Below, piece by piece: positions 7,678-61,475 of a stretch of DNA of 64,000 nt. The notes below the pieces were generated by a model. It was given only the letters and a program-made list of their open reading frames with translations. It did no database searches and was not told the DNA's origin. The first letter of the stretch is position 1. Each line of letters begins with the position of its first letter. Origin of the DNA: Maylandia zebra (lineage: Eukaryota > Chordata > Actinopteri > Cichliformes > Cichlidae); the NCBI RefSeq assembly GCF_041146795.1, contig NC_135169.1, forward strand, positions 13,769,852 through 13,833,851, written 5' to 3'. The position numbers were made by a program, and so were the translations under genes.

Positions 7678-7832
7678 CAGTAGTCCCCAACCTTTTTTGT
7701 GCCACAGACTGGTTTATGTCTGACAATATTTTCACAGACTGGCCTATAAGGTGCCGCGGATAAATACAACAAAATAAAACCAGTACCAGTACCAAAAAAG
7801 AAGATCTGTGGCCCGGGGGTTGGGGACCGCTG
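7678..7832. mobile_element. hAT-type miniature transposon
   Basis: This 155-bp element has inverted ends CAGTAGTCCCCAACC / GGTTGGGGACCGCTG and is flanked by a perfect 8-bp duplication ACTAAGAG (7670-7677, 7833-7840). An 8-bp duplication with CAG..CTG ends is the hallmark of hAT elements. Relatives in the window are at 53033-53353 (longer, intact ends) and 44452-44538 (fragment). Confidence 0.9.
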
Positions 7833-17900: not shown

Positions 17901-20797
17901 CTGGTGCAACAGGTGCTTTTCAGGTCAATCCTCTTCCTTCTTCCTCCTCCTCACATGAGCGGAGAGACAAACACAGCAGGAGGAGGAGAGGAGAGAGGAA
18001 AGGTGAGAGTAGAGTGAAAGACAAAGTCAAATAAAACGAGATAGCAAAAAATATAAATAAAATTACTGACTCTCTTTGTCTACTCAGCTCGTTCAACCTC
18101 GGACCTTCTTTCCCTGGGGATGGAGTCACAGGTTGACGTGTCACGACTTGACCTGAGGGTGGGACGAATCCTCAGCGCCCGCGTCCACCCGCTGGCCGAA
18201 GCCATGATTGTGCAGGAGGTGGACATGGGAGAAAACAGCTCCCGGACGGTGGTTAGTAAGGTGGGACAGGAAGCAAAACCTGAGGAGGTAATGTGACTTT
18301 ATACTGAAAACTATCATCAACTTTGTTATTGCTTTAAATAGGCTATATACAGTATACTAAATGAAAATACAATATTAATAAAAAATATTATTGTTATTAT
18401 TTTACATTTACATTTTTTGTCAGAGTACTGAAATTTTTTTCCAGTAAGTATATTGATGACATTTTAATTTTTTAAATTAATATAGTTTTTTTTTAAAAAA
18501 TATTATTACTTAATAAAAATTATAAATGTATAATTTGCCCTTAACATATACTGCTTAGCATTTCGAGTATTTTTTACTTTTCTACTAAATAACTTCTATT
18601 TAATGCTTACAAAACAAAATAGTTTCTTTCTCTCTGTAGCTTCAGGGCTCCTTAGCTGTGTTGCTATGCAACGTCAAGGCCTGTAAGCTGAAGGGCGTGG
18701 TCTCCCAGGCCCGCCTCCTCTGCTGCTGCATCTCGGATGACTGTGTTGAACTGTTAGTCCCGCCCACAGGCTCCACCCCAGGAGACAGGGTCACTTTTCT
18801 CAACTACCCTGGTAACAATGTAGCATTAAAATATATGAACACAGTGACTGAGTTAAGCAGAGTTTTAAAAGCAGTTTATAGAAGCGATTGTAACTCAGAT
18901 TAAACAGACGCAGGGCAATCGTGGCTCAAGAGTTGGCATTTCGTCTTGTAATCGGAAGGTTGCCGGTTCGAGCCCCAGCTTGGACAGTCTCGGTCTTTGT
19001 GTCCTTGGGCAAGACACTTCACCCACTGCCTACTGGTGATGCCCAGAGGGGCCGATGGCGCGATATGGCAGCTTCGCTTCTGTCAGTCTGCCCCAGGGCA
19101 GCTGTGGCTACAACTATAGCTTGCCTCCACCAGTGTGCGAATGAATAATGGAAGTGTACAGTGCTTTGAGCTTCTCGAAAAGCGCTATATAAATGCAATC
19201 CATTATTATTTATTTCTCTGCCGACAGTTTTTAAAGCTTAAACTGACTAAAGATTCTGATACCATCTTCTCAAGCATGAGTATAAAGAAGAAAATGCTGC
19301 TGAAATTGATCAATTTGTTTTTAAATTAGACTTAGTTTTTTCCATAATGTCTTTTGCGGGTAAATCAGCAGGTACTTTCGGTAAATAGTGCAGGGGTCTC
19401 AAACTCCAGTCCTCAAGGGCCATTGTCCTGCAACTTTTCCATGTGCCCCTGCTGCAACACACTTGCATGCTGAGGTGGCAGTTCAGCCATTTGATTCTAG
19501 TTACAGCAGCTCATGAGTGAATAAACATGGTGCAATAAAAGTACTTTTAGCTTTCTTACAACAAGCCTCATTTGCACATACATTCATGTAAATAAATTTT
19601 TTCTCCCTAACCCAACATTCAAACGCTGGTGGACATATGAGGGTTCAGTATAATGCTAAGAATACTTTGATATCTAGAACAGGAGGCAGGGATCTAACCA
19701 CCGACCTTCTGATTAGCAAGTGACTTGCATCATATCATTTTAAAAAGTTATTGTCTAAAAATGTTAAAAATAAAGTAAACATCAATGTCCACAACTTTCT
19801 ATACTTTTCTGACCCAAAGAAGCAAAGCAATAACAAGTATAACTGAAAAAATCACTGGAAGCTGCCACTCAGCAAAGAATTCAATCATTCGAAAGTGGGC
19901 TTAAAGAGAAAGGAGTTAAAGTAGGTTGTGTCAGACAGAGGATCCATCCATCCATTCGCTTCCACTTATCCTTCTCAGGGTCACGGGGAGCACTGGAGCC
20001 TATCCCAGCTGTCATAGGGCGAGAGGCGGGGTACACCCTGGACAGGTCGCCAGTCTGTCGCAGGGTTAACACACAGGGACAGACAACCATTCGCACTCAC
20101 ATTCACTCGCACATTCACACATTCAGAAAGAGGATGCATAACCATAATAGAGATTTATAGTAATGTATCTGGAGAGCTAGAAATAATTGATTGACATGAT
20201 CTTTTTTCACTTTATTCCTTATATGAATTAAAAGAAATCAAATCATTTGACTCTTCGTGAATGACTGAAGACATAAAAGATGTACTTTAATTCATCTTGA
20301 TGCAAATTTCTAAAATATGTTATAAACCAAAGAATATAGACACAGATTAAATTTTTTGGGCTCTGGTGTAACAACGACACAGATTTGCATCTTACTACTA
20401 AACATTAACAAAGTAATGATCATTTTCCGGACGGGAAGAAATCCAATCATGTCGTTGTCAGTTAAAACCTTGATAGTTAGTTGCAAGAAGCCATAGTTTG
20501 TTGTGCCTGTGAATAAAATACATTTGTTAAATTAAAAAGTAGGAGATAAAGTCCTTGTTTTGTATCTGCACCACAAAAACATTTGGGTTTTTTTCACTTT
20601 CCTTCACTGTCTTTCTCTTCCCGTGTTCAGGTGAGCCGGACAAGGAGCTGCAGTCCAAGGAGAAAGTTTGGGAGCTTCTCCAGCCGGACCTGCAGGTCGA
20701 TGGCAGGGGCGTGGCCAATTACAAAGGATGTAGCTTTGAGGTGAAAGGCAAGGGGCTGTGCAGGGCCCCCTCCCTCACCAACTGCATCATCAGATAG
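8918..20797 (+). CDS. aimp1: aimp1: multisynthetase-complex scaffold p43 / pro-EMAP II
   Basis: Seven coding exons join in frame with GT-AG borders: 8918-8949, 15008-15102, 15290-15403, 17817-18002, 18088-18287, 18640-18811, 20631-20797 (966 nt, 321 residues; human AIMP1 312). AIMP1 is a tRNA-binding scaffold of the cytoplasmic multi-aminoacyl-tRNA-synthetase complex, and its C-terminus is released as the cytokine EMAP II. Residues about 40-80 form the leucine-zipper-like coiled coil (ASVREQKKLLVENAKLKKDI matches the human helix). Residues about 81-145 are a Pro/Ser/Thr then Arg/Lys-rich linker. From about residue 155 comes the EMAP II/Trbp111 OB fold (DVSRLDLRVGRIL, KGVVSQA, PTGSTPGDRV, PGEPDKEL, YKGCSFEVKGKGLCRA). 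Usual OB-fold residues are changed: HPDADSLY reads HPLAEAMI and VVSGL reads VVSKV. Teleosts can carry aimp1a and aimp1b; which this is cannot be decided. Introns hold tRNA-Thr genes. It converges on gimd1. Confidence 0.92.
10965..11310 (-). repeat. Decayed LTR-like fragment in aimp1 intron 1
   Basis: The stretch shares blocks such as CAGACAACCTGACA and CAAACACAGCTG, plus a TTTAAGTCC-like TATA region on the minus strand, with the LTR-like insert at 46.3-46.5 kb, and has a layout similar to 6.7-7.1 kb. Ends and target duplication were not found. The assignment rests on family resemblance only. Confidence 0.4.
11770..11965 (-). mobile_element. L2-type LINE 3' tail
   Basis: On the minus strand a short open piece reads FKKQPKTHLFRLAF, the usual C-terminus of fish L2-type reverse transcriptase. 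It is followed by an untranslated tail with AAGCACTTTGTGG and GTGCTATATAAATAAATT, the shared end of this LINE group. Only the last part of the element remains. Confidence 0.65.
13256..13279 (+). other. aimp1: Possible 24-nt microexon in aimp1 intron 1
   Basis: A polypyrimidine-AG acceptor (CCTTCTGTTTCAG) and a donor identical to consensus at six positions (GTAAGT) bracket 24 nt. Inclusion would add eight residues in frame (RGSVLCLI) between exons 1 and 2 without a stop, because both neighbours are phase 2 and 24 is divisible by three. No homolog of such an exon is known to me. Confidence 0.25.
13706..13777 (-). tRNA. tRNA-Thr (CGU anticodon)
   Basis: This 72-nt cloverleaf has no mismatches: acceptor GGCATGA/TCATGCC, D stem GCC/GGC, anticodon stem TTGGT/ACCAA with loop CTCGTAA (anticodon CGT), T stem ATGGG/CCCAT, discriminator T. 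The A box (TGGCCAAGTGG) and B box (GGTTCAAATCC) fit pol III. It is antisense to aimp1 within intron 1. A clear T4 terminator is not seen within the first 25 nt downstream, so activity is uncertain. Confidence 0.85.
14206..14388 (-). mobile_element. LINE reverse-transcriptase fragment
   Basis: The minus-strand frame reads NNLHINTSKMKDMVVDFQRN and later VDTYKFLGFHLND. This matches the N.L.lN..KTKEmivDFR...yKYLG region of fish CR1/Rex-type LINE polymerases. It is short and ends abruptly, lying inside aimp1 intron 1. Confidence 0.7.
15646..15724 (-). pseudogene. tRNA-Thr pseudogene
   Basis: A degenerate relative of the tRNA-Thr(CGU) genes nearby. The acceptor and T-arm sequences survive (GCATGGCTGCCAAG ... 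GCCCCATTGATGCC), but the anticodon region is expanded and altered (about 79 nt overall). The cloverleaf cannot form. It lies in aimp1 intron 3, antisense. Confidence 0.7.
16015..16086 (-). pseudogene. Decaying tRNA-Thr (CGU) copy
   Basis: The acceptor, D stem and anticodon arm (CTCGTAA loop) match the intact copies. However, the conserved GG of the D loop is lost (AAGTATTAA), and the T stem ATGGG/CGCAT has an internal G-G mismatch. It is probably non-functional but recent. It is the third member of the antisense cluster. Confidence 0.7.
16543..16614 (-). pseudogene. tRNA-Thr-derived pseudogene with altered anticodon loop
   Basis: 72 nt related to the neighbouring tRNA-Thr genes, with acceptor mismatches (GGTGTGG against CCATGCC). 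The TTGGT/ACCAA stem now closes a GTCTTAT loop, so the anticodon would no longer be CGT. The T arm (ATGGGTTCAATCCCCAT) is intact. Confidence 0.65.
17057..17128 (-). tRNA. tRNA-Thr (CGU anticodon), second copy
   Basis: A perfect cloverleaf: acceptor GGCATGG/CCATGCC, D stem GCC/GGC with AAGTGGTAA loop, anticodon stem TTGGT/ACCAA with loop CTCGTAA, T arm ATGGG-TTCAATC-CCCAT. It differs from the copy at 13.7 kb at only a few paired or loop positions. It is antisense in aimp1 intron 3. No strong T4 terminator directly follows. Confidence 0.85.
18913..19210 (+). repeat. Full-length tRNA-derived SINE
   Basis: The pol III A box (TGGCTCAAGAGTTGG) and B box (GGTTCGAGCCC) lie in a tRNA-like head. A conserved body follows (CTTGGGCAAGACACTTCACC, GCAGCTGTGGCTACAAC), then the tail AAAGCGCTATATAAATGC with ATT repeats. 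It is in aimp1 intron 6. Other copies are at 32549 (nearly complete), 41467 (head) and 58155 (tail). Confidence 0.85.
19391..19500 (+). repeat. Fragment of a hAT-type repeat end
   Basis: The stretch begins CAGGGGTCTCAAACTCCAG, the characteristic terminus of a widespread vertebrate hAT-related repeat, followed by its subterminal GGGCCATTGTCCTGCAAC. No matching right end or duplication was found. Confidence 0.5.
19937..20110 (-). repeat. Interspersed teleost repeat fragment
   Basis: ATCCATCCATTCGCTTCCAC and TATCCCAGCTGTCATAGGGC with GGTACACCCTGGACAGGTCG form a block I recognise as a very common teleost interspersed sequence, ending in (CACATT)-like short repeats. The family is not assigned. 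Confidence 0.5.
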
Positions 20798-28857: not shown

Positions 28858-30552
28858 TCATTTAGATCGGTGACACACATGAAGCCTTGCCTTGGCTGGT
28901 GATGCAGAGCCTGAAGACAGTCCTGAGGAGTAGTGAGATGAGGTTGCCGAGAAGTTGAACCGTGACACTGCAGCTAGTTGGGTACCGGGTTCTCGCAGTG
29001 TCCGGCAGATGAGTCCGTCCCCACAGGGACAGCGCTGGAACAGCTCCAGACCGTGGTTCCCCTTGCGTCGGTGTCGCGTGCAAACCTGTCCTTCACGTAG
29101 CACGGGCTTGCAGATGCGAGTCCAAAAGTGACGGGCGCAGCACAGACCGTCCAAGCAGTCGGATGAGCGCAAGCAAGGATTCCCGACCTGACCTGAAACA
29201 AACACACAAACCCTTAGAGAAACATGAAGGAGGCAGGGGGAAACATACTGCGGGTTTATAACACTAATCTCACTTCTGCCAGGGGATCCTTTGGCTTCCT
29301 GCCTCCCGCCTTTCTTTTTGGTGAGCGGGCTTAGCGCTCCATCAGTGTTTGGAATCCTCTCAGACACAAAGCCGTCCACATCAGGAACACAAATATCTGC
29401 CGCAGGAAGAACATAGAGATAATACACTTGATAAAATTTTAATTATGAATAGTTTATTGTCATTAATGTTAAACTGAAGTTTTCTGTAGAGGAGCATCTA
29501 AACTGTTGCTGCAGTGGTTGGTGGGGCAACACATTGTGTCCCTGAGGCAGGGCCTCTTCCTTCTGCGGCAGGTCTTGCAGTGGGAGTGGGCAGGACGTCT
29601 TGAGGAGGTGTGACAGTAGTTCCCCTCTCTGCACTCCAGGTCACTCATGCACTGGTAGACCTGCAGACAGACACACAAACATTATTACAGAGTAACAAAT
29701 GAACCTGGTTTTCGTTTTGTAATTTAAGGTGATCTTTTCGTACTGGTGAAAAAATAGCATGAAATAACAAACGGAGGGCTTAAACTACTCTGACTTGCAG
29801 TGCCCTGAGCCACTTTATGTGAGATTTATACTTCTGGACTAAATCTACGCCATAGGTAAGTCTTAACTGCAGACCTCTCTGAAAAAGTAACTACATGTAA
29901 CATAAACACAGTCTTCAAATATTGTGATTGGCCTGAAATCCGAATATGCATTTCTGGCTAGTTTTCCTCTGATTGTCAATGGATCATAAATGTCATCGAC
30001 TCATTATAGGCTTGCATAGGCGACATCATAGGCTCAACGCAGAATTATCAGCGTTTAATTTTGTAGCACTCTTCTAAAGTACACCTCAACATTACAACTT
30101 AAAACTGTACATTGGGGCAAAACAGTCCAGTTGATAAACCAAAGAAACCTTTTATTATCCTTCCCGATGATGTTGAAAGCCAAAGAAATTTTAAAACATC
30201 ATCATAGTTTTTTTTTTATCACGAAAACCATCATAACAGCTGAGAAGTGCACCTGAAACAGTATCCTGCTGATAAAAAAGGCCAATGAACTTTTTGAAAC
30301 AATGTGATGTTCTTGATGATAATGTTTAGAAACATGTAAATATTATAAGTGACTGGTAACCCAGATGGTACCTGTAATTTGAAAGTGAATACAGACTTGT
30401 AATATTCCCACCAATCAAATGTTTGAAACAACAAAAAAAGACCAAAACTCCTGTCAAACTGAAGCAATGTAACCAATAATGTTCAGTCAATAAAGCTTTT
30501 GAAACATTGCAACAACACTGCAAATAAACATTTCTCTCTCTCTCTCTCTCTG

Positions 30553-37697: not shown

Positions 37698-38890
37698 CCA
37701 TGCCTATTCAACTACGAAGTTAGTTGGGCCAGACTTTCAAACCGAGGAATTTATCTGGGCCAGATATTTTTTTTGAAGCCAGTAAGCAGCAGATCATGAT
37801 CAATTTCAAACCCACACAACTGTACTGAAAAACAAGTATTTTTTTTATTCCTTTTCCCCTGTAAATATGGTGACCTCTCACAAATGCACACCAAAAGGTC
37901 CATTTAAAAAAAAGGGAGCTGTAACTAAACAATTTTTTGCACATTTGAAATAATAATAATAATAACAAAAAACATTTTGATAATTCCCTTTCAAATTAAA
38001 ATAAATATTTCGCTGACCACTCACTTTTCCTGCCATGGATGGAGCCCCATCCGTCACAAGTATACAGACACGCTTCATATCCAGACCATTTTCCTCAAAA
38101 AGAGCTGAAATCTTCTCAAACATTATTTCGCCAGCTGTGTGTCCCTCTAACGGTAGTAAGCCGAGCAATTTCCCATCCAAAAAACGGACATATACGCACA
38201 ACTGTGCATTATCAGTTCTGTCAGTGATCTCCTGCTATAGACATTACATCAGTTTTCTTCAGGTCATCTAACAGCATTTCAAACTCGTCTGACGCCAGAA
38301 CTTCAATTCTACGAATATTTGAACTGTCCTACAGGGGTACGTTTTTAATAGCAGATGTCACCCTCACTTTTCACCGCATCCACCACGGCCAGCATGCAAT
38401 ATTTCACTGTTTCAGAATCTGTGAAAGGCCTTTTCTTCTTCGCCAAGAAGCAAACACGAAGGGAAGATGCTGCAGCTCTCTCTTGGGCTGTACAGGACCC
38501 TCACCATGGTAGTACAACTCCGGTTGTAAGATTATTAAACTCAGTAAAATGAATAAGTATTTGTCAGTCCAGGCAGGGTTAAACCGACAGTTTTCATTGT
38601 CAATTTTGCGCTTTTGGAGTGAGAAAGACATGCTGTTGTCGCATCATATATTATGATGATCGTTTAACATGTTTACATCACGGTGCATTGTGGGTTAAAT
38701 ATTGCTAGGCTACTAGGAGTGTTGCATTCACAGTCTACACTACGCTGTAGGAATTTTTAATTTTTTTAAAATTAATTAATGAATTAATTTTTTGCGTTTT
38801 CTCTGTGTTTCTGCCAGGACCACAGGCAGGGCCACTCGCAGGTTGCTTCTGGGCCGCATTTGGCCCGCGGGCCGCCATTTGAATAGGCTT
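37698..38890 (-). mobile_element. Decayed autonomous-type hAT transposon
   Basis: The ends are inverted (GCCTATTCAA / TTGAATAGGC) and flanked by near-identical 8-mers GGTCTAGA (37690-37697) and GGTCTAGG (38891-38898). Minus-strand fragments read KRKIDNENCRFNPAWTDKYL near the start and LLGLLPLEGHTAGEIMF and ILVTDGAPSMAGK further on. This is the order found in hAT transposases of the ZBED5/FAM200 type. Frameshifts and stops break it, and the C-terminal half is missing. One mismatch in the duplication indicates age. Confidence 0.8.
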
Positions 38891-40027: not shown

Positions 40028-40328
40028 GGCTGTCTTGATGCATGCTCAATCAACCAGATAAGTAAATCCAATAAGGTTGATTCTGTTCATCTGGACGTAG
40101 CGGTTGTTGATCAGTGGTCATGACAATTTGTATATTAATGATAAATGAACTGATGTCACAACCAGTTGTTCATTCAGTAGTGTTAGTTTCACCCATTGTG
40201 CAAATGTACTGTTTATAAGATTGGAGAAACCTGCAGTCAGCTGAGACTGAAGAAGTCACTTGGATGCGTGACGAAACGTTTCTTCACTGAAAACACTACA
40301 TCCAGATGAACAGAATCAACTTTTGGGG
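40028..40328. repeat. Hairpin-ended teleost repeat
   Basis: GTTGATTCTGTTCATCTGGA near 40077 and TCCAGATGAACAGAATCAAC near 40301 are inverted arms around a body containing GAAGAAGTCACTTGGATGCG and ACGAAACGTTTC. A related fragment in inverted orientation lies at about 51866-51950. The class is not assigned. Confidence 0.65.
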
Positions 40329-41139
40329 GGTTTTCGTTGTATTTGTTTTATTTTGAAATATATATGCAATACTGTGCAAAAGTCTTGAGGACAATGGGTA
40401 TAGGTGCAGTAATCACTTGAAAGATGCGTAAACATTTTACATACAGAGTTTATACAGAGTTTGATATGACCACCTTCATTCCTCAACACAGCTTGGACTC
40501 TTTTAGGTAAGCTTTCCTATAATTTCTTTAACCCTCTGGTGTCGACTGAGGTACTGGCGCAATAAAATCACATCACCAATTTAAGATGACATATCAGCAA
40601 GATGAATCATGCTTTAGTCTCTATGTTGAAAGTGTGGACTTTAAACTGTATAACAGTCTTTTAATTGTGTTGATAGACCAAGTAAAGACAGAGTTATGAT
40701 AAATAATTTACACCATGTTTTTTCCTGAATATTCTCACCATGTGTAGTGCAGAAATAATTGGTAAAAATTTGAATTTTAAAGGACAAGTGAAAAAAAACA
40801 TACATGTTTCTCACCAGTGGGAAAGTGCACCAACCCATTGAAAAATTGTGTCATGCCTGTGATCTGCTCCTCCGTCGTGTTGTGGATGGGAAATAGGAAC
40901 TGCACAAATAATTTTTGTGGCATTTTATTGTGACACCTGAATGTTTATGGCATTATTTTAGTGCCTCTATTCTGAGCGCACATAAAAAAATTTGCAAGCA
41001 CAAATGTTGCATGTTGAAAATTATTTTGAGCAAACAGAAGTTTAATTTGAGTGAACAAAATTCATTTCTGTGTGCAAGAAATGTATTTCAGTGTTTGCGA
41101 TTATCCATATATGGTCTTTCGTTAAACATGATATATACC

Positions 41140-43317
41140 CTGACTTCTTTAGTAAAATATTCAATCTCGTCTCACAATACAATGACCATAATATCATTAT
41201 CGGTGGTGATTTTAATTGTTAGTTTGATCCATTGTTGGATAGGTCCTCTGTGTCCCTGGCCCCAACTTTGAGAGCTGTTTCTGTACTCAATACTCTTACT
41301 AAATCTTTGGGCTTGGTTGACATTTGGAGGCACCAGCATCCGTTACAAAAGCAATACTCTTTTTTCTCCCCTGTCCATGGCAGTTTCAGTAGAATTAACT
41401 ATTTCTTATTGATTCCAGGCTTATTTCGAAAGTGATTAGTTCCACTTATCACAGTTTTTTAGTTATGGGCGATCGTGGCTCAAGAGTTGGGAGGTCGCCT
41501 TGTAATCGAAAGGTTGCCGATTCGAGCCCTGGCTTGGACAGTCTCGGTCATTGTGTCCTTGGGCAAGACACTTCACTGGGGAGAAATTCAACCCCTCTTT
41601 ATATCTAAATGACTGTTTTACGGATTACCTATCTACTAAAATTGCAGAATTTTTACAATTCAATGATAACGGTGCAGTTTCAGGCTCTGTTTTGTGGGAG
41701 TCCTTTAAAGTCGTCTAGTTTGCCCTTTAAGGTCTCCCAGGATTATTTTTCATACCTGGGTATTAACATCCCTAGGAACTCAAAACTCCTCTTCAGGCTT
41801 AATATTCGGTTCTAACTGATGAGCTCAAGTGTATGATAGATAAATGGAAACGTCTCCCACTTTCAATGATTGGCCGTATCAATATAATCAAAATGGTTGT
41901 GCTCCCTAAATTCACGTACCTATTCCAGAACGTTTCTATTTCAAGGTTCAAGGTTCTTTATTAATTTTATTAATTTATTTTTCTCAGGTCTTCCTTTTTC
42001 AAAGCGTTGGATGCCATTATCATGCCTTTTGTTTGGGCCTACAAGCCCCCCCGCATCTCGAAGTCTCACTTGCAAAAGCCCACGGACGAGGGTGGTCTGG
42101 GCCTTCCAGTTTTCAAACATTATTACTGGGCCTGTAATGCCAGAGCCTGGGTCTTCTGGAATCTGCCTATAGTTGGTGATGCTGTGGAATGCGGGTCCAG
42201 CTCTAAATGGCTCGAAATGGAGCTTAGCACCGCTATCGAGCGCACTGGAGCATCCTTGCCAACGATCTTATTTTCAAAACTGGTTATTAAAAGTACACCA
42301 TCATGTAATAACTTTATTCTTTGCAACTCTATAAAAATATTGAATCAAATCAAGAGAATCTTGAACCTCCCGGAAATGCCAACTTTTGCCCCGATCTGCC
42401 ACAATCCTACCTTTAAGCCTAGTACAATGGATGCTGCTTTCAAACAATGGCCTGTTAAAAGGTTGACTGCTATAGAGGATCTTTATATTGACAATCATTT
42501 TGCTTCTTTTGCTCAACTTCAGACAAAGTACAACCTCCCTACAAGTCATTTTTTTCAGTACTTACAAATTAGGAATTATGTCAAGCAAGCATTCTCAAAT
42601 TTAGATACTATCCCCATACAGCATGTCTTTTACAATATAATGAACGAACCTCCCAACTCAAAACACTTAATCTCTCAGCTTGTTAATCTTTTTTCTTTGG
42701 CAGCCCCCTCTTGCCATATTAAAGAGGCTTCGTCAAGAGACACTGGTTTGGTTATCTCTGACGATTTATGGGCTGAAGTGTTAAGCCCGATAAAACTATG
42801 CTCTGTTAACGCCCGGCTTCAGTTAATTCAGTTTAAGGTTGTCCATAGACTGCACTATTCCAAAACCAAATTGAACAAGATTTTTCCTAACGTTTCCCCC
42901 AAATATGATAAATGTAAACTTGTGGACGGATCTCTTGGCCATCTTTTTTGGTTCTGTTCTACGCTTACAGCCTTTTGGATTTTTTATATTTTTAGTTTCT
43001 ATAGCATTGTTTACTACAGGCAACTGTATCCTGACTGTCTTATGGTGATCCTGGGCTGCTACAGCAACTCCTTGGCACTTCCCTTTGCTGTGCAACAGGC
43101 CCTCATGTTTGGTATGGTTATTGCCAAACGTCTGATTCTGGGGGAGTGGAAATCTGCCTCCCCTCCCTGCTTCAAGAGGTGGCTCGAGGAGATGGTCTCC
43201 TGTTTATACCTGGAAGAAATTCGGTTCTCTACGTCTGATTCCATGGAGAAGTTCAGGAAGATATGGGGTCCCTTTATAGACCACATTAACAAGGACAGTC
43301 CACACCCTGGGTCCTGA
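41140..43317 (+). pseudogene. L1 ORF2 remnant (endonuclease and C-terminal half)
   Basis: The endonuclease end (SSVSLAPTLRAVSVLNTLTK ... SRINYFLL) and the post-polymerase region survive. From 42007 a 436-codon frame stays open to 43317: PRISKSHLQKPTDEGGLGLP and YWACNARAWVFW are classic L1/Tx1-group signatures, and further on comes the cysteine region (KCKLVDGSLGHLFWFC). Between 41.4 and 41.7 kb the catalytic FADD-containing core is absent. A frameshift just before 42007 separates it from LPLSMIGRINIIK. An open frame this long in a dead copy suggests a young insertion. Confidence 0.75.
41467..41577 (+). repeat. SINE head fragment within the L1
   Basis: The head of the same tRNA-derived SINE as at 18913 (GATCGTGGCTCAAGAGTTGG, GGTTGCCGATTCGAGCCCTG, TTGGGCAAGACACTTCAC). 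It stops just before the part encoding the SINE body. It marks the junction of the L1 internal deletion. Confidence 0.8.
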
Positions 43318-43506
43318 CCACATTGTCTTAACTGTTATCATTCTGAGCTGTTGCCCATAACTGTTATGAATCGGCTCCTCCTGGCAATCTCTGGATTCGA
43401 TCTTCAATGTGGATTGGTGTTTGACATGTATACCATTTGCTTTTGTCTTCTCTGCTGTTTTTGGTACTTACAAATTAGGAATTACAAATAAGTGCTGGCC
43501 GTGTAC

Positions 43507-44634
43507 TAGGGCTGCTCGATTATGGCAAAAATGATAATCACGATTATTTTCACTGAAATTGAGATCACGATTATTTGAGGATATTTATTTAACTCTTTAA
43601 GACCTACTATAGAACCAAGTCCACCAGAGCTTATATAATTTTTTTACATGCTGTAGTGCCATTTGTGGGAGCATTTCAAGTTGCTATACATCAATACAAC
43701 TGTTATAGCCCATATTTTAATAATATGTATGCATTAAGTCCATAGTAATTACATAAATTGCAAAAAAGTGCAATAAACTACAAAAAAAATTGAAAATTGC
43801 TTTTGTTTTGTTTACATATATTTCTATTTGGAGAAATTTAAGAGGCTTATCCCTCAAAACTTTAAATACAATAAAGTTGCAAAAAATAGTTTCCCACCAC
43901 AGGAAATTTATTTTGAGTGTCCTCATAGTTTTATTTTGGAGATACAGCAATTTTTATATACTGCAGGAAAAACAAAAAACAATCCTATGATGCAAATTTG
44001 GAAAGAAAACAGCATGTGCATCATTTCACTGTGGGAAGTGTTACGAACAGCTGATAGGAACGGCAAAGCGTGTTTCTGGAATATTATGTTTTTGTTCCTG
44101 CAAGCGCTTTTTATGCAATTTTTGCAAAGCTATATGTGGAACGAAACCGTGACCGAGGACAAGCTGATGGCATAAGATGTAAGTACAACTCCTCCGGTTT
44201 CATATGCAAAACAAATTATTGCGCTAGCTTACATGGTTCAGGTTCTACAGGGATTTAACAATAGTTACGCAAAACGGAGCGTGCTGCTCTGACCGGCTTT
44301 AAAGGGTTAACAATGACTTTAAAAAATAATATAAAATAGTGTGCAACACCACTGAAGTTTTTTTTTTTTTAAACTCTCTTTTCAACCAACGGCAGTCACT
44401 CTCCAAATAACTTCTGCTTAGCTTTCCGAGCTTCCCTCGGGTCCTCTTAATCAGCGGTCTCCAACCTTTTTTGCGCCACGGACCGGTTTATGCCCGACAA
44501 TATTTTCATGGACCGGCCTTTAAGGTGCCGCGGATAAACGAGGGAGGGGCTAATAATCGGCTCAGTCATTTTTAATGATCGTTGAAAGCCCAGATCGTAA
44601 TCGTGATTAAAATTCGATTAATTGAGCAGCCCTA
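43507..44634. mobile_element. hAT element within the L1 3' UTR
   Basis: The ends TAGGGCTGCTCGATTA / TAATTGAGCAGCCCTA are inverted repeats flanked by a perfect 8-bp duplication CCGTGTAC (43499-43506, 44635-44642). ATCACGATTAT units in the subterminal regions are typical of the family. Internal open frames show no transposase. It contains part of a second hAT element at 44452. Confidence 0.9.
44452..44538 (+). mobile_element. Fragment of the CAGCGGTCCCCAACC hAT family
   Basis: The left end of the family at 53033 and 7678 (CAGCGGTCTCCAACC ... CCGCGGATAAA). It is truncated before the right terminus and lies inside the hAT element at 43507-44634. Confidence 0.8.
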
Positions 44635-45765
44635 CCGTGTACCCTGTTGTGGGGTCTGTTTGTTTGTTTTTTGTTGCTGTTTTGTTGTTGTTTTGTTTTT
44701 TGTTTGTTTGTTTTTTTCCTGCTCTTTGGTGTTGACTTTCTTTTTGTTGTCTTTATTGTCTGTGTTCCTCTGTCCCGCTGTTTGTGAATGTGTAAAAAAA
44801 ATGAAACTTGCATAAATAAATAATTTAAAAACAAACAAACAAAAAACCAAAACAAAATATGATATATACATGATATATAAATCAATTAGGTACCTTTTAA
44901 ATGTTCATGTTTGGTTTATTCCAGTGTTTGATTTGTTCCTGAGTAAATCGGTTTTGCTAAGATTAAAATTCAGCTTCATAACTGGACCGTTTACACAGCA
45001 CCATTCTCGCCTTAAAAAATATCTTAAAAGATTATTTTGTGATCCAGAAAGAGTAATATTTCAAACTCCGCCACTCTGCGTTCCTCCCCAACTGCCTCAT
45101 TTGAGTTTTGGACAAAATGCATTCTGGGATATTTGCCTGGGTTTGGCTACAGTAGCTAGCGAGGTGATTGGAGAACAAAGCAGTCAATCAGAATTTTTTG
45201 CATCCAAGTCTGTGATTGTTTGGTTTTGTGGCACACTTACAACGGTGTACAGAGAGTTGAGTGCGCACTAAGCAGAGATGTTGTGAGCAAACGACACACT
45301 TAGAGCAGGTCTGCAGATGTCTGTGAGCGCACAAAGCAGATCTGAGGAAGAGCAAATGCCAACAACTGAGCGAGAGGAGCTGTTATTGTGTGTGTATATG
45401 GATAATCGCAAACACCGATTTTTGCACGCAGCAATGAATTTTGTTCGCTCAAAATAATTTTCTCCTCAACATGCAACATTTGTGCTTGCAAACTTTCTTT
45501 TAGGTGCGCTCAGAATAGAGGCACTAAAATAATGCCATAAATCTTCTGTAAGTAGTTTTAAATAATTGTACAAAAAACTGCATTGGAAAAAGTGATACCA
45601 CACAAGGCAAGCCAATTAAAAAATGGCCAATTATACCCCAGACTCCAGAGGGTTAAGTAGTCTTTAGGAATAGTTCCCTTTTGTTCTGTTCTCCGTCAAG
45701 AGGATTCCACACTGCTTCAGTAATGTTGAAGTCTCTGGGGGAGGCCAATCTATGATTGGTAGTGC

Positions 45766-46848
45766 TTCATTGTCAAGGATGGGTAGGGGAAAAGCGAAAA
45801 AAAAAACCCAAAACAGGAAAAAACAGTGAATTTATTTACAGTAAGTAAGTTGAAGGATATATACAGTTCATTAATTCTGTGGCTTCTCTGAGGCAGGTCC
45901 CGGAAATGTCTCTCGACGTTGCGAGTGTCTGTGTAGTGTAAAACAGTTCCAAACAATCCTGTGCTCGTGCTCCGACCTGTGGCTCCTCTCTTGTACTTCT
46001 CCCGCGGATCCACTCTTGTAAAAAGACACTCTCCGTTTCCAATTCCTGATGTAAAAACACACATGATGGCAGGCAATTCTAAACAATAAGCGAGGTTCAA
46101 ACACAATTAATCACGGCCGTACTGACGAGGATTGACTCAATGATCCAGTGTCGACCGGAGCTTAGCCACACTGCTAAATAGGTCGCTCTTCTGATGGTAA
46201 GCCGCACAGCTAATGAAGGCGAAGAAGAAGAAAACTTATAACCAAAGGCGAGCTGCTTAATTAGGCTGAAAAAAGGTACAAAAACAAAAAGCACAACACA
46301 CTGGGGAGAAACTAAGTAGAACTGAACTGGGAAAAACTAAATGCTAAACACAAAAGACGAACAAAAACTTGAACATGGACCAAACCCTTGAGATGTGTAA
46401 GTATGGAACCATGACGAGACCAACAGACAACCTGACACTGAAGAAAAGAGGACAGAGGACATGAGTACACTCAAGAATAATATGGGGATGGGGAACACAG
46501 CTGGGACAAATCAAATCTAACAAGACAAGGGAGAGCAATTTGGGGTTAGTATCTTGCCCAAGGATATTTGGCATACAGACTAGGGGAATCCAGGAACCGA
46601 ACTACCACCTTTCCAATCAGTAGATGACCTGCTCTGCCGCCTGAGCTACAGCTACCTCAAGGTGCAGTTACCTCCAGCGCTAGACACTTATGGATTGAGC
46701 GGTCGCAACCTAAACTCTCTCTCCGGGAGCGAGAGATAAGCAAAAACACAGGGAGACAGAAAAAAAGAGGGAGACACTAACAGAAACAACAAACACAAGC
46801 ATAGCGAGGAGGTCAGCCGCGGAGAACTGTCATACCGTGACAGTGACT
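45766..46848 (-). mobile_element. LTR-like insertion in the Tc1 transposase
   Basis: The Tc1 transposase reading is interrupted between its KYTVT-like piece and its EALPIIDWPP-like piece. The insert has TGTCA...TGACA-type ends and blocks shared with the LTR fragment at 10965 (CCAACAGACAACCTGACA). No target duplication could be matched, and it contains a SINE. LTR identity is therefore tentative. Confidence 0.45.
46535..46655 (-). repeat. tRNA-derived SINE of a second family
   Basis: On the minus strand: GTAGCTCAGGCGGCAGAGCA (A box region) and GGTGGTAGTTCGGTTCC (B box region), then CTTGGGCAAGATACTAACCC. The head differs from the SINE at 18913, but the following body is related. Confidence 0.7.
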
Positions 46849-48794
46849 GTGTATTTTTCTACCTGGGTTTTGTTTACTGCACTGGAAGTGTGTTTGGCAT
46901 CATTTTCATGCTGAAAAATAGAACTTTTTTAGTTGGCATTGCATGATGGATCAAAATCTGATGCTACTTTTCTGTGTTCATAATTCCATCTATTTTTATA
47001 AGATCTAAACACCACTGGTTGTAATGCAGCCCAAACCATGACAGTTCCTCAGACATTTTGTACACGTGGCTGCAGACATTCACTATTGTAGCTCTCACTT
47101 GAACTTCTCCCTACCTTCTGAGAAAAACTTGAACACAAGGTTCAAGGTTTGGATTCATTACTCCATCAGAGCTGTTGCCACTGACTTTCAGTCCAGTTCT
47201 TGGGTAGTTTAGCACACCTCAGCTTTGTCTCCCCGTTTCCTCTTCCTTAAGAAGGACTTTCACTGAGTGAACAGTAGTTGGATCAACTGAAGAGCCAGGT
47301 GCATCTCTCAGGTCCTGTGTCAGGTCTGTGTTGGATCTCTTTCCATTTTTTTGATGACATGACTTTCAGATAATCTTCCTGTATATAGTTAATCTTTTAG
47401 GCCTCAAAATTATTTTGTCCTTCACTTGTCCAGTTTCTTGTAGATTTATTTGCCTTTTTTGGCATCTACTTGATAGAGAGAGTGTTTGTGTCACATTTTT
47501 AAAAGAAATCTAAGGCAACATTTATTGTGTGTGTCAGTGATACTTTTGATGTTTTACATTTGTAATAACAGCTTACTGAGATGCTAGATTTTACTGCAAA
47601 GAAAAAAGTATTTTGGTACTGAGGTAATTCCATGCTGTCAAACAGGGAAGAAGAAGTGACTCACGACCTGCTAAGTTAACCGTTAACAACAGTGAGTCAG
47701 AGGGAGAGTCCCTAGTAAAACATGGTAGGGTGGTTCAATTGGGACTCAGAAACAAAGTTCACTGTCCTCACATTGTCAGATATTTTAGAGTCAGTGAGAA
47801 GCTGCTGTGCTGCAGAAGTTTCTCAAAACCAAAAGAGGTTTCAGTTTTAGTCAGGTGTCTCAAACAGGAAGCCCCAGCTGCATATAAATGTTGTGAGGTT
47901 AGTTTGTTCTTTACATATTGTTATTTTCTGTTTGCATGTTGCAGTTCCTCTCTGCTGCTCCATTGGTCAGTTATTTTCAAAACAATATATTCGCGAGTGA
48001 GTGAGACACAGACTCATTCAAGGGTTTTCATAAATACTTTATAAATTGTGGAAGAAAATTCAAACAAGATAGCAAACATTTTTCAGAGACACTTGAGGCA
48101 AAGTCCTCCTTCTGTTATAACTAAGAAAAAGAGCTGATAGTGAAAATACCCCTCAGATGTGTTGCAGTTGTCGCAGGAAGAACTGATGACCAGAAAAAGG
48201 TCTCAACTGACAAACAAGGAAAATGGAAGGAAATGAAACCGTGATCTGTGCGATATGAAAAAATTATATTGGATGATGATATTAAACACAGACATCGATG
48301 CAGCAAAAGTCTTCTGCCACTAAGTAATATTTAAAGATTATGGAGAGAGTTTACAAATCAGAAGGAAAAAGGAGTCTCCTGTGCTAAAAATTAGCCTTTA
48401 GACTCAAACATAAGAACATAAGAACGGGTGCCATATAATAAAGTTCTACGATGATAATAGCTGACATTTTTTAATACATGGTTTCATGCATTGGTCAAAA
48501 AACTCAACTCCAGGTGCACAACGCCCAGTCGAAAGTACTTTACACAAGTTGAGTTGCCGTGTTTATATTACGAGTTTTGGGTCAAAATATTGAAGGAAAT
48601 CATAGCATACTACACTGCATATGTGATCCCTGTGTGAGCCTAACAGTACACTGAATTAAAGACTGTGCAATCTGCAGTTGATGTCTGTAGACAGGTTAGT
48701 TTCCTGATGACCAAACAGGAGGAGCAATGATAGCTGTAGGCCTCAGGAAGCACTTCCATGACTGTCACTATGTGACTGCAGTAAAGCCAAATGT

Positions 48795-49037: not shown

Positions 49038-51733
49038 CAGGGCTGGACTGGGACAAAAAATCTTCCCGGGCATTTTGACTAGAGACCGGCCCACCAGGTA
49101 TTAAAGGAAAAACCATAAAGACTTTGAATGAAAACAAACGCCGTTGTCACAGTGATGTACACTGTCTTGCTGGTACATATGTATCAATCTAATAAACTTA
49201 AACCTACACCATCCTCCCTATTCTGGTATTCTAAACAGTACCTGAAAGTAGACTGCTTGGTCGAGTTAACCTCCTGAACTATCTACAACACATGGTGAAA
49301 ACCTGAAATTAAGACAGAGAAGACTAGAGGTGAGACATGATCATTACTGATTACTAGGGATGGGTATCGTTTAGGTTTTATCCGATACCGGTGCCAAACC
49401 GGTACTTTTGAAACAGTGCCGGTGCTCAAACGGTGCTCAAACCGGTGCTTAAAGAATGGAGAACACAAAATTGGTCCAAAAACCTCTCATGTTCAGCTGT
49501 TTTTTGTAAAAATATAACAATGTTAGCCTTTTCTGCAGCTATGGGGCATATATGGTGTCACTCTTGGCTGGAAGCAGTGCTTAATCAATGGAAAAAACAC
49601 AAACTTTGTCCAAAAACCTCTCATGTTTAACTGTTTCCCACTTTTTCTTTGGTCATTTTAGCCTTTTTAGCCAGGGTGAAGGGAGTATCTGCCATCAAAC
49701 AAGAGGACAGCCGCATGTAGCTATGATGATGTTTGCTAGTTCACCTTACATGCATTAATGTAATAACGTGGTTAGCCTACTCAACGTAAATTACACACGA
49801 ACAACATTAAACTACTCACGCAGAGAAGAACGGCTGCTGCCATCATCATCCGTCATCATTTCTGCTACACTGGCAGGGCTAGGGGCCAGGACTCTCCTCT
49901 TCGTGTTTTTGGGGGATGTTGCATAACAGGCAACCCACCCGCAGTAGATGTGCTCGATGTGAGGTCTCGCAGCAAGCTATCAAATACGGCGCATTTCTGG
50001 GCTTTTAAAAAAAACGCTATGCGTTGCCAGGTGTTTCATCGGATTCGAGGTGTTACTTCCTTTGACAGTATCACAGTATCAGCTTAAAGCACTTGTTGCA
50101 GGCTGCTGAGTTTGCATATTTTGCTATGAAGTACAGCCAGACTTTTAACCGCTTCGCCTTGGGCATTTTTAATCTGTAGCTCTGCTTTAACAGAACGTAC
50201 GTACCTGGCCCCGCCTACTATCCTCGGAAACGTAAAATGATTGGCTAGAATCTAAAGTGTATCACAGCTCAGGAAAAAAAAGCACCGAAATAAAGCACCG
50301 AAATGTGCGCTGCTTTTCGGTCTGGTTACTACCGTTTATGTCACCCATCCCTACTGATTACTGATGACAGATTTAGATATATTTTCATAAAGCATTCATT
50401 TGCCACATCAATAAACAGCATGGCAGGGCAAAATATTTTTTCTAACATGGCAACCTTTAATAAGTGAAAGGAGACAGAAAGACAGGTGAGAAAGAATAAA
50501 ACTTAATTGACTTTTTGATGGCATTTTACACACAGTACTGGTGCAGTATCTAGAAAATGTGGGAAAATACTGGCATCATATCCAATACTTAGTTCTGAAG
50601 AAATTATGTTGGGACCCTCAAAAAAATTACTATGTACAATAATGGATTTCTATATTTTACATCAGATGAAAACATTTGTTTTCAGATAATTATTTATTCA
50701 AAGTTTTTAAATGACATAACAAAGAAAAGTATTTCTTTGTGCCAACCTTTCCCTTTTAATTCCCTACATGGACCCCTGGCAACGCTTTGCTAGATCCGCA
50801 CCTGCACAGTTACCAGCTGTCAGCTACCTAAAAAAGGATCCTGGTGTTATTTGTCTCTCAGAAACAGTTCATAACTTCCCTTCAACTCATTCATGTCACC
50901 TAAAAGGTAAACCTGTTTCTCCATCACCTGTTCAGCTCTGATGATTCAGTAAGGACATCTCCTGGTTTCATCTTCATGTTTCCCTCTCACCACATATCCA
51001 AACCGATATCATGACCAGCAGCTTTACAGCTGTGGCTCCAGCAAACATCAGCTGATACTAGAAATTAATATTAAATAAATTCTAACAACAGCTGATCAAG
51101 CTTAAACATGCTGCTGTTGTTTAGCGCGACATCTGCTGGTTTCCTCTTTCTGGGGCAAAGTGGGCGATAAATAAGAGAGAAAAGCCGATCAGCTGATTAT
51201 TGATCAGTTTCATGATTGATGTAGAAACAGGAGAGAGAGGGGAGAGGATGAGAGAAGAAGAGGCAGCTGTGCAGCAAAGACACAGAATAACTCCAGCTTT
51301 GTGCCTTTTTCATTGTAGCTGAAGTACGGGACAAACTGTTCCTTTTCACCTCAATACGAGACGATTCCATTTTTTACGGGACAGTTGGCAACTCTAATAA
51401 CTAACCTTATAAATAAAATAAGATAAAACAAGTTCAACATCAGTAATATCATAGCACCCGCCCAGCTGTATATAAACTCCGTCATGCTAGCTAGCACGCA
51501 GTACGACTAAAAAGTCAGCACAACAAAGATAAACTCCACCTAAACTTGGTTTATATCTGACCCAGATAGACTGCAGGTCATAAATTCTTACCTGAAGTTC
51601 AGTTCACCACCTCAGGTCTCTGCTCCTCCTGCCTTTCCGTCATCCACCTGCCAGCGTGTTGCACCTGCTGGCCTCCACCACTTGCTAATGTTACTGAATC
51701 TGTGGAAGCTCCGCAATAGCCACCACCAAACAA
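49038..51733 (+). repeat. Second copy of the 24.3-25.6 kb block
   Basis: The order of unique landmarks is the same as in 24331-25585: GGCTGGACTGGGACAAAAAA, GACTAGAGACCGGCCCACCA, GGACCCCTGGCAACGC, AGGATCCTGGTGTTATTTGT, CAGCAAACATCAGCTGATAC, CATTTTTTACGGGACAG, TGAATCTGTGGAAGCTCCGC. This copy keeps extra sequence near 50.4-50.7 kb that is missing at 24.5 kb and is split by a 1-kb hAT insertion. It lacks the AGTAACT-rich termini of the 23904-25728 element. Confidence 0.75.
49355..50353. mobile_element. hAT element (TAGGGATGGG type)
   Basis: The ends TAGGGATGGGT / ACCCATCCCTA are flanked by a perfect 8-bp duplication CTGATTAC (49347-49354, 50354-50361). Both subterminal regions carry ACCGGT/CACCGAAA units. 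There is no transposase. It is 999 bp long. Confidence 0.9.
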
Positions 51734-52506
51734 CTAAGTTATTTTTACACATCTCCCTTCATCTGGCCAATCCACCACCTTTCAGTGTTTATACCGTTAC
51801 GGAAGAAAAAAACGGAAAAAAAAAACCATCGGCCCATAAAAACGAAAAACCACCAACCCAGCTACACTGAAAACGCTACGTCCAGATGAACAGAATCAAC
51901 TTTTGGAGATTTACTGACCTGGATGATTGAGCATGCATTAAGACGTTAAACACCACTTCATAAATTTACAGTGGCATGTGGTAATTTCCATCCCTGGCAT
52001 TGCTCAGGTTTGATTTTGGTCAATTTTTTAAGATCTGGTTCCTTGAGCCATTTTATGAGCTCAGGATTTTGTGTTCTCAGTTTCTTATATTTTAGTATCA
52101 ATTGTTCCTTTAAAAATGATTTTATTAATTAGCAATAGTGTGCTTTGATGCACAAAATTGTTGCTGCTGAAAAGTAAGATGGTGTGCCTCAGGATTTTAC
52201 TGTCCTATGTACATTTTTTATTGACCTGCGAACACACATGTAATGTATAAAGTGCTCTGAGTGCTGCAGTAGAGTACAAAGGATCTATATAAGGCATGAT
52301 ATAATTCTCTGGAAAACTTGTTTGAGTCCATAAGAAGAGATTCATTCTTAAATCTGGAGGAAGATTTTTTTTTTCAGTAAATATTAATGTTAGCCCGCGA
52401 CCTTGTTCCAGTTTTGAATTTTGGCCCACTGTGTATTTGAGTTTGACACCCCTGCTTTAATCCATCAAGCTTCAATAGAAAGGATCAGAGCAGTCCCTGG
52501 GTATAA

Positions 52507-53032: not shown

Positions 53033-53353
53033 CAGCGGTCCCCAACCTTTTTTGCGCTACAGACCGGTTTGTGCGCGACAATATTTTCACGGACCGGCCT
53101 TTAAGGTGTCGCGGATAAATACAACAAAATAAAACTAGTACCGGTACCCAAAAAAATAAGATTTATTCATAACACACATGAAAAGACCCGGGAAAACAGA
53201 GTTAACGAAAAAAAAACGATAACAAAATAACGCTAAAATCCGATAAAAACCCTGAAAACCATACATTTCACATCCGAGTCTCACTCTCGTGGCCCGGTAG
53301 CAAATGACTCACGGACCGGTACCGTTCCGTGGCCCGGGGGTTGGGGACCGCTG
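53033..53353. mobile_element. hAT-type non-autonomous element
   Basis: CAGCGGTCCCCAACC and GGTTGGGGACCGCTG are perfect 15-bp inverted ends, flanked by the 8-bp duplication ATTTAAAC (53025-53032, 53354-53361). At 321 bp it is the longest of the three family members in the window. Confidence 0.92.
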
Positions 53354-57624: not shown

Positions 57625-57848
57625 TTCTAATGGAAAAGGGGCTTATGGTTTCTCCCTTCCTGTTCCCATGTTCATCTCTCTGTGTTTTGTCGTTTTGTCT
57701 CCCCAGTCTATCTTGTCCCCATGTTTATCCCCACACTCAGTGTCATGTTCACGTGTCACTGGCCTGCGATTTAATCTGAGATGCTAAAATTTCAAGGGAA
57801 GGAGTCTATATATGGGTGCAAGTGTATGTGAAGCAGAATGTGTAGTGA

Positions 57849-57920
57849 GGCATGGTGGCCAAGTGATAAGGCATTGGTCTTTGGTAAATCGCAGCTCATG
57901 GGTTCAAACCCCATTCATAC
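57849..57920 (+). pseudogene. tRNA-Thr-derived pseudogene
   Basis: Acceptor, D arm and T arm (GGCATGGTGGCCAAGTGATA; CATGGGTTCAAACCCCAT) match the tRNA-Thr genes in aimp1. The anticodon arm is scrambled (TTGGTCTTTGGTAAATC), so no proper anticodon loop forms. Confidence 0.7.
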
Positions 57921-58154
57921 CTTTCCTGTAATCTTGAATGGGGCTCCATGCTAAGAATGGAAACAAACAAGGATTTTAGTCTACTATTGGAGTAGGACTA
58001 TTATACTAGTGGACTGATATCATATAATGAGGTACCTAATAACAGAGAAGAGATGCACAATATCTTTAAACACAAGAACTGGATAGACTTGTGAATTAAT
58101 TTGACCTAATTTTAATGACTAGCAGTGGTCATTCATTTTTCTATGCATTTAATA

Positions 58155-60483: not shown

Positions 60484-61475
60484 TAATGATCGGAAAAACG
60501 GTGAGGGGGAAGCATAGTCTTAAACAGAAGCCCCAGGCACACCACCAACCTGTTCATGTGTCTAACCATTTTTCCCCACTCAGCGACAAACCCACTGGGG
60601 GTCAAACTCTGGTAATTGGCGATTCTGTTCTCAGACATGTGAAGCTAGAGACACCAGCAGGGGCCAGAGCAGGCGACACTGAGGGAAACGTAAAACTGCT
60701 GGTTAAGGGTAAACGTAAATTCAGTAAAATTATAATTCACGTCGGCAGTAATGACACCTGGTTACGTCAATCGGAAGCCGATTGACTGATTGAAGAAAAT
60801 AAGAACAACCCCAGGTTTCTCTTCAGCACTGTAGCCAGGCTGACAAAACGTCAGAGCTCTTTTGAGCCAACCATCCCTTTAACGTTAACTAGTAATGACT
60901 TCATGAACTTCTTCACAAATAAAATTTTTATCATTAGAGAAAAAATGACCAGTAATCATCTACAGCTACTCTTAGTACCATTGATGTTTGTTTAGACTCT
61001 TTTTCTCCAATTAATCTTTCTGAGTTAACTTCAATAATTACTTCCTCCAAACCATCAGTGTCTTTTAGACCCCATTCCTACAAAACTGCTCAAAGAAGTC
61101 CTGCCATTAATTAATTCTTCGATCTTAAATATGATCAACCTATCTCTAATGATCGGCTATGTACCACAGGCCTTCAAGCTGGCTGTAGTTAAACCTTTAC
61201 TCACAAAGCCATCTCTAGACCCAGCAGTCTTAGCTAATTATAGGCCAATCTCCAACCTTCTTTTCATATCAAAAATCCTTGAAAGAGTAGTTGTCAAACA
61301 GCTAACAGATCATCTGCAGAGGTATGGCTTATTTGAAGAGTTTCAGTCAGGTTTCAGAGCTCATCACAGCACAGAAACAGCTTTAGTGAAGGTTACAAAT
61401 GATCTTCTTATGGCCTCTGACAGTGGACTCATCTCTGTGCTTGTCCTGCTAGACCTTAGTGCAGCGTTCTGCTGA
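60484..61475 (+). mobile_element. L2-type LINE, ORF1 esterase and RT fragments
   Basis: [13 protein letters not shown] and [12 protein letters not shown] (about 60.6-60.77 kb) are the SGNH/GDSL-esterase motifs of L2/CR1 ORF1. From about 61131 to 61475 an RT piece reads [59 protein letters not shown] and LLDLSAAF. The remainder of the polymerase is missing here; a matching YADDTQLY piece lies at 63.1 kb beyond the last cfi exon. Confidence 0.8.

Follow-up and report, generated by a model that had tools for sequence, protein, structure and literature searches.

The window, a 64-kb stretch of DNA (C3:13769852-13833851), holds a nest of transposable elements whose order, from the outside inwards, is Tc1-like element, TTAA-target (piggyBac-type) element, long-TIR element, L1-type LINE and hAT element. 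The order is supported by containment, by target duplications and by related uninterrupted copies within the same genome, with the respective insert lacking from 3 of 7 Tc1-like copies, 3 of 9 piggyBac-type loci, one long-TIR relative and 5 of 5 L1 copies. As a whole, the nest is best explained by four ordinary transpositions stacked within an already resident Tc1-like element, an explanation given a probability of about 0.95. The piggyBac-type element would have entered the Tc1-like element and the long-TIR element would then have inserted into the piggyBac-type element, probably at a TA. Next, the L1-type LINE would have landed in the long-TIR element, where a duplication of 11-12 bp and an A-rich tail mark its entry, and finally the 1128-bp non-autonomous hAT in the L1, where the duplication measures 8 bp. 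Besides these four steps, the SINE-bearing insert in the Tc1-like element and the SINE head and small rearrangements in the L1 would count as side events. The duplications, the nesting and its order are seen directly in the data, whereas the enzymes and their modes of action (target-primed, cut-and-paste) are inferred from what is generally known of these families.

The genome searched is the window's own assembly (962 Mb in 63 contigs), and as the genomic repeat searches score the best 40 or so candidates, copy counts are lower bounds. A preliminary description of the same DNA had listed these elements and had read the order as Tc1 > piggyBac > TIR element > L1 > hAT. By sequence reading and repeat search the elements are present nearly at the coordinates it gave, and insert-free relatives exist for all four steps of that order. 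The features are as follows, with the strand where one is assigned.

40366..40531, minus strand: Tc1-like 3' part, ending at the TTAA (40528-40531) that is the entry site of the next layer
40532..40945: piggyBac-type element, left part, with TTAA and inverted CCCTCTGG; a portion has relatives of 72-80% identity
40948..41111: long-TIR element, left arm, with TA before it; aligns to the right arm with 133 identities, 8 mismatches and some gaps
41126..41138: left L1 target duplication, ATGATATATAC or ACATGATATATA
41139..41466, plus strand: L1 ORF2 endonuclease part; 41137-41460 matched by 10 genomic copies at 95-96%
41467..41576, plus strand: SINE head in the L1
41577..43462, plus strand: L1 endonuclease-RT spacer (to 41714), then RT C-terminal part
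43463..43486, plus strand: 24 bp duplicated from ORF2 of the same L1, source near 42557-42578
43499..43506: left hAT target duplication, CCGTGTAC, with a single occurrence in the L1 copy L063
43507..44634: hAT of 1128 bp, taken as non-autonomous; at least 39 other full-length matches at 98%
44449..44538: head (90 bp) belonging to a second hAT family, inside the 1128-bp hAT
44635..44642: CCGTGTAC, the hAT target duplication on the right
44643..44858, plus strand: L1 3' end with A-rich tail, corresponding to the 3' terminus of other L1 copies
44859..44880: L1 target duplication on the right, with a near-tandem repeat
44881..45394: long-TIR interior, with family matches
45395..45537: long-TIR element, right arm, aligned to the left arm and followed by TA
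45540..45652: piggyBac-type element, right part, its inner end adjoining the left part in L017, L023 and L027
45653..45771, minus strand: TTAA (45653-45656) and Tc1-like middle part, to which four of the seven fetched copies have a match
45772..46842: insert with LTR-like ends within the Tc1-like element; absent from L009, L010 and L012
46530..46660, minus strand: SINE within that insert; at least 39 other matches at 89-94%
46848..47500, minus strand: Tc1-like 5' part; at least 46 other matches; forms one collinear series with the remaining pieces in L009, L010 and L012

The outer layers

For the outermost layer, three of the seven fetched genomic copies (L009, L010, L012) carry all three Tc1-like pieces in order on one strand with neither insert. 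The others cover the last piece (L007), the middle and last pieces (L013) or the first and last pieces (L008, L011). The 3' part has at least 39 other genomic matches of 81-89% identity that extend to the joint, and the alignment crosses the TTAA joint in six of the seven fetched copies, with L011 diverging upstream. The TTAA itself is kept there in four (L007, L008, L011, L012), and the window's own flanks, when joined at the TTAA, give a continuous frame with a single stop. The preliminary description had named Tc1 pieces from different families as an outcome that would overturn the nest; as the pieces are collinear in single genomic copies, the nest withstands this test. The outer 5' end of the element was not found.

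The superfamily name Tc1 is less secure than the nest itself, given its weak protein support. Apart from one weak match, the outermost layer is presumed to be Tc1-like on the basis of motifs typical of that superfamily. Pfam gives no match to the Tc1-like pieces and protein searches give no homologue. The match concerns one piece, which shares two short collinear stretches with the Tc1/mariner transposase Sleeping Beauty (PDB 5cr4) at E = 0.16; against that transposase, the window copy is decayed and in pieces. Searches of solved structures with further pieces yielded nothing useful, nor did collections of bacterial and viral contigs; five viral-contig matches have nothing in common with the Tc1-like pieces beyond the 18-base pattern itself.

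The insert at 45772..46842 has ends of the form TGTCA...TGACA, and no 4-6 bp target duplication is found at its flanks, which do not match, so that it is not filed as an LTR element. The LTR-like insert noted earlier in the Tc1 is thus at most a putative LTR element, and the SINE within it had been missed. With the SINE set aside, the matches listed include one partial relative (C18, at 79% and 73%), which is without a 440-bp stretch corresponding to the SINE and about 310 bp more. The insert is a side branch that cannot be ordered relative to the piggyBac-type insertion.

TTAA, at 40528-40531 on the left and at 45653-45656 on the right, bounds the second layer. Its two ends carry TTAACCCTCTGG in inverted orientation, and the inverted terminus CCCTCTGG accompanies the TTAA at 40528 and at 45645-45656. 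The TTAA target duplication and inverted ends of a piggyBac element are thus in place, in agreement with the earlier proposal that the Tc1 is cut at a TTAA by an element of this type. No transposase frame is seen in its remaining pieces, and the name piggyBac is presumptive, taken from the TTAA and from end motifs typical of the family.

The long-TIR element in the third layer belongs to a widespread family with at least 59 matches, the window copy counted. Family ends read TATGG in five of six cases (window included) and CATGG in one, and because of this one exception a TA target duplication is only probable. An alternative is that the long-TIR sequence forms the inner part of the piggyBac-type element and never inserted separately, which would fit a target duplication of TA only and piggyBac-type relatives that are just 72-80% identical. 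However, three of the nine piggyBac-type loci examined (L017, L023, L027), out of a larger set that had 29 others fetched, have the two flanks side by side without the TIR sequence, the other six not displaying the empty site, and the long-TIR sequence is a widespread family of its own. Together these observations make the alternative very improbable and bear out the preliminary placement of a separate long-TIR element inside the piggyBac-type element.

The L1-type LINE and the hAT

The L1-type LINE lies between copies of the 11-mer ATGATATATAC at 41128 and 44859, which occurs nowhere else in the window. On the right, a near-copy of the 11-mer stands in tandem with it, so that a 12-bp duplication, ACATGATATATA at 41126-41137 and 44868-44879, is also possible. 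The sole long-TIR relative read at the L1 site, L088, has the site empty, with TTAAACACAATATATAAGTCA against TTAAACATGATATATA on the left in the window. This suggests that the right-hand tandem repeat was absent from the target, and the duplication may therefore be the 12 bases ACATGATATATA. A target duplication of variable length (11-12 bp) and an A-rich 3' tail, both expected of an L1, are present, as is an ORF2 with endonuclease and reverse transcriptase homology. The latter has 54 protein relatives, several with PF00078 and including sequences from Sparus, Oreochromis, Parambassis and Xiphophorus, by which the genome looks to be that of a teleost. The L1 piece gives a below-cut-off Pfam endonuclease match and no other Pfam match. 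The open frame at 41974-43317 encodes a 447-residue stretch, 99% of which aligns at 61% identity with an L1-type ORF2 of Sparus aurata (UniRef, P0001); compared with that protein, the window L1 is without the RT core and is interrupted.

Comparison with genomic relatives indicates that the L1 is rearranged. Twelve genomic copies align at 88-91% with the first 1749 of the 1785 query positions, and the RT core, complete in the ten fetched copies L045-L054, is deleted at 41714 in the window (1370 bp, measured against L046). About 60 bp of L1, in the coordinates of one copy, are gone at the SINE head, the SINE tail also being missing, and there are gains of 39 bp at 41942 and of 24 bp at 43463. 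The 24-bp stretch lies 13 bp before the hAT target and looks like a templated insertion; none of the five L1 copies that were read at this point has it. These losses and gains refute a simple 5'-truncated copy. The preliminary description of a 5'-truncated L1 with an 11-bp duplication therefore holds for the L1 and its duplication and fails for truncation as the only change, and the SINE head that it placed in the L1 is recovered, being identical to the copy at 18913-19022 at 100 of 110 positions.

The open frame was also considered as a sign of selection and rejected as such. Against the 12-copy consensus, differences number 22/438, 21/440 and 25/439 at the three codon positions (p = 0.82), an even spread that is as expected for an L1 copy decaying without selection. 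The 68 substitutions, if random, lead to an expected 2.3 stops, and zero stops occur in 9.7% of simulated frames, so the open frame is unremarkable. The ten copies L045-L054 each differ from their consensus at no more than 9 of 1317 coding positions, which points to recent amplification of the L1 family. L063, which at the hAT site is the nearest of the L1 copies to that of the window, has a further insert, several hundred bases long, just upstream of this site.

The innermost layer, the hAT, is flanked by CCGTGTAC at 43499 and 44635 only within the 64-kb window, abutting the short terminal inverted repeats TAGGGCTGCTC/GAGCAGCCCTA characteristic of hAT elements. Duplications of 8 bp, perfect and different from one copy to the next, flank 4 of 4 fetched hAT copies, as is also typical of the superfamily. 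The hAT is absent from its site in 5 of 5 L1 copies (four aligned, L063 read directly), and at that site L063 reads GGCCGTGTACCCTG once, with a single CCGTGTAC. The insertion of a hAT into the L1 with an 8-bp duplication, as first described, is well founded on these counts.

The preliminary description had added a sixth level, in which a second hAT inserted into the first at this locus. The 90-bp piece concerned is indeed 91% identical to a complete hAT at 53033-53353 in the window, but it occupies an identical position in 4 of 4 fetched hAT copies, and all 39 of the other matches listed, among the best 40 of 4255 first-look candidates that were scored, span positions 1 to 1128 at 98%. The piece was therefore acquired by the hAT family as a constant part and does not record an event here, which leaves a sixth level with next to no probability. 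Two complete short hATs of the other family lie elsewhere in the window, at 53033-53353 (8-bp duplication ATTTAAAC) and at 7678-7832 (ACTAAGAG).

For the nest as a whole, two random k-mers from the region are identical by chance with a probability of 3.7e-5 (8-mers) or 1.9e-6 (11-mers), and each duplication abuts the end of its own element, so that chance is not a reasonable explanation. An assembly error joining unrelated repeats, although long repeats are prone to misjoining and the assembly sequence alone was examined, can practically be dismissed in the face of the expected target duplications at four joints and of flanks that match uninterrupted relatives.

Divergence of the layers

Dating of each layer by divergence, proposed in the preliminary description, sets the hAT apart from the older layers, does not resolve the L1 from the TIR element and fails for the piggyBac-type layer. 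The Kimura two-parameter (K2P) distance from the majority of other copies is 0.013 for the hAT (4 copies), 0.056 for the L1 (12), 0.057 for the right half of the TIR element (5), 0.237 for the piggyBac-type element (29), and 0.094 and 0.096 for the Tc1-like pieces (4 and 7 copies), the Tc1-like values being biased low as they derive from best matches only. At a divergence of 1.3%, against 5.6% for the L1 and 5.7% for the TIR element, the hAT is clearly younger than both, whose own order divergence cannot tell. For the piggyBac-type element the value is higher than for the Tc1-like pieces that enclose it (about 0.095) and, taken as an age, would contradict the order. The 29 piggyBac-type relatives lie at a median of 0.045 from their own consensus and far from the window copy, so that 0.237 is read as a distance to another subfamily. 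Divergence of terminal repeats was rejected as a clock here, since it gives the wrong order, the hAT ends differing at 12 of 63 positions and the arms of the older TIR element at 8 of 141. A dated series of transposition waves in this fish lineage, ending with a recent burst of one composite hAT in which the end of another hAT family is included, is a tentative reading of the nest, and the odds lean against it.

Precedents and surroundings

That transposons insert into one another, and that such nests can serve as a relative clock, is already established, and the locus is a clear case of an ordinary process. As far as the available parts of these reports go, nested elements serve as a relative clock in interruption analysis (PMC2517846), and nested insertions are used to order element activity in TinT (PMC3014933) and TRANScendence (PMC5657132). 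Common to these studies and the present one is that interruption of one element gives the insertion order; they apply genome-wide statistics to other genomes or as general tools, whereas here one locus is compared with copies from its own genome. In the available part of a report on medaka (PMC5789577), nested elements are described as co-opted for gene regulation. The present nest resembles these as a set of nested elements in a teleost, and nothing here points to a function; none is indicated for the host. The locus provides a clean worked example of four nested insertions, each checkable against uninterrupted relatives in the same genome, and it could help to order the activity periods of five families, as one data point among many nests.

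Several further features lie outside the nest. A repeat with inverted arms at 40032-40323 is located just left of it, with a relative at 51862-51944. Rfam at a relaxed threshold gives no match in the nest region or at 51700-52100, and likewise found nothing in the repeat at 40032-40323, which by eye presumably contains a hammerhead-like core of the kind seen in Penelope elements. Three open frames are assigned provisionally from their appearance, with 28858-29442 presumably resembling a Dickkopf C-terminal part, 37878-38234 a piece of a hAT/ZBED-type transposase and 61038-61475 a piece of a LINE reverse transcriptase. Four tRNA genes (three Thr-CGT and one Lys-CTT) lie on the minus strand at 13706-17128, and a tRNA Pro-TGG lies on the plus strand at 57848-57923.
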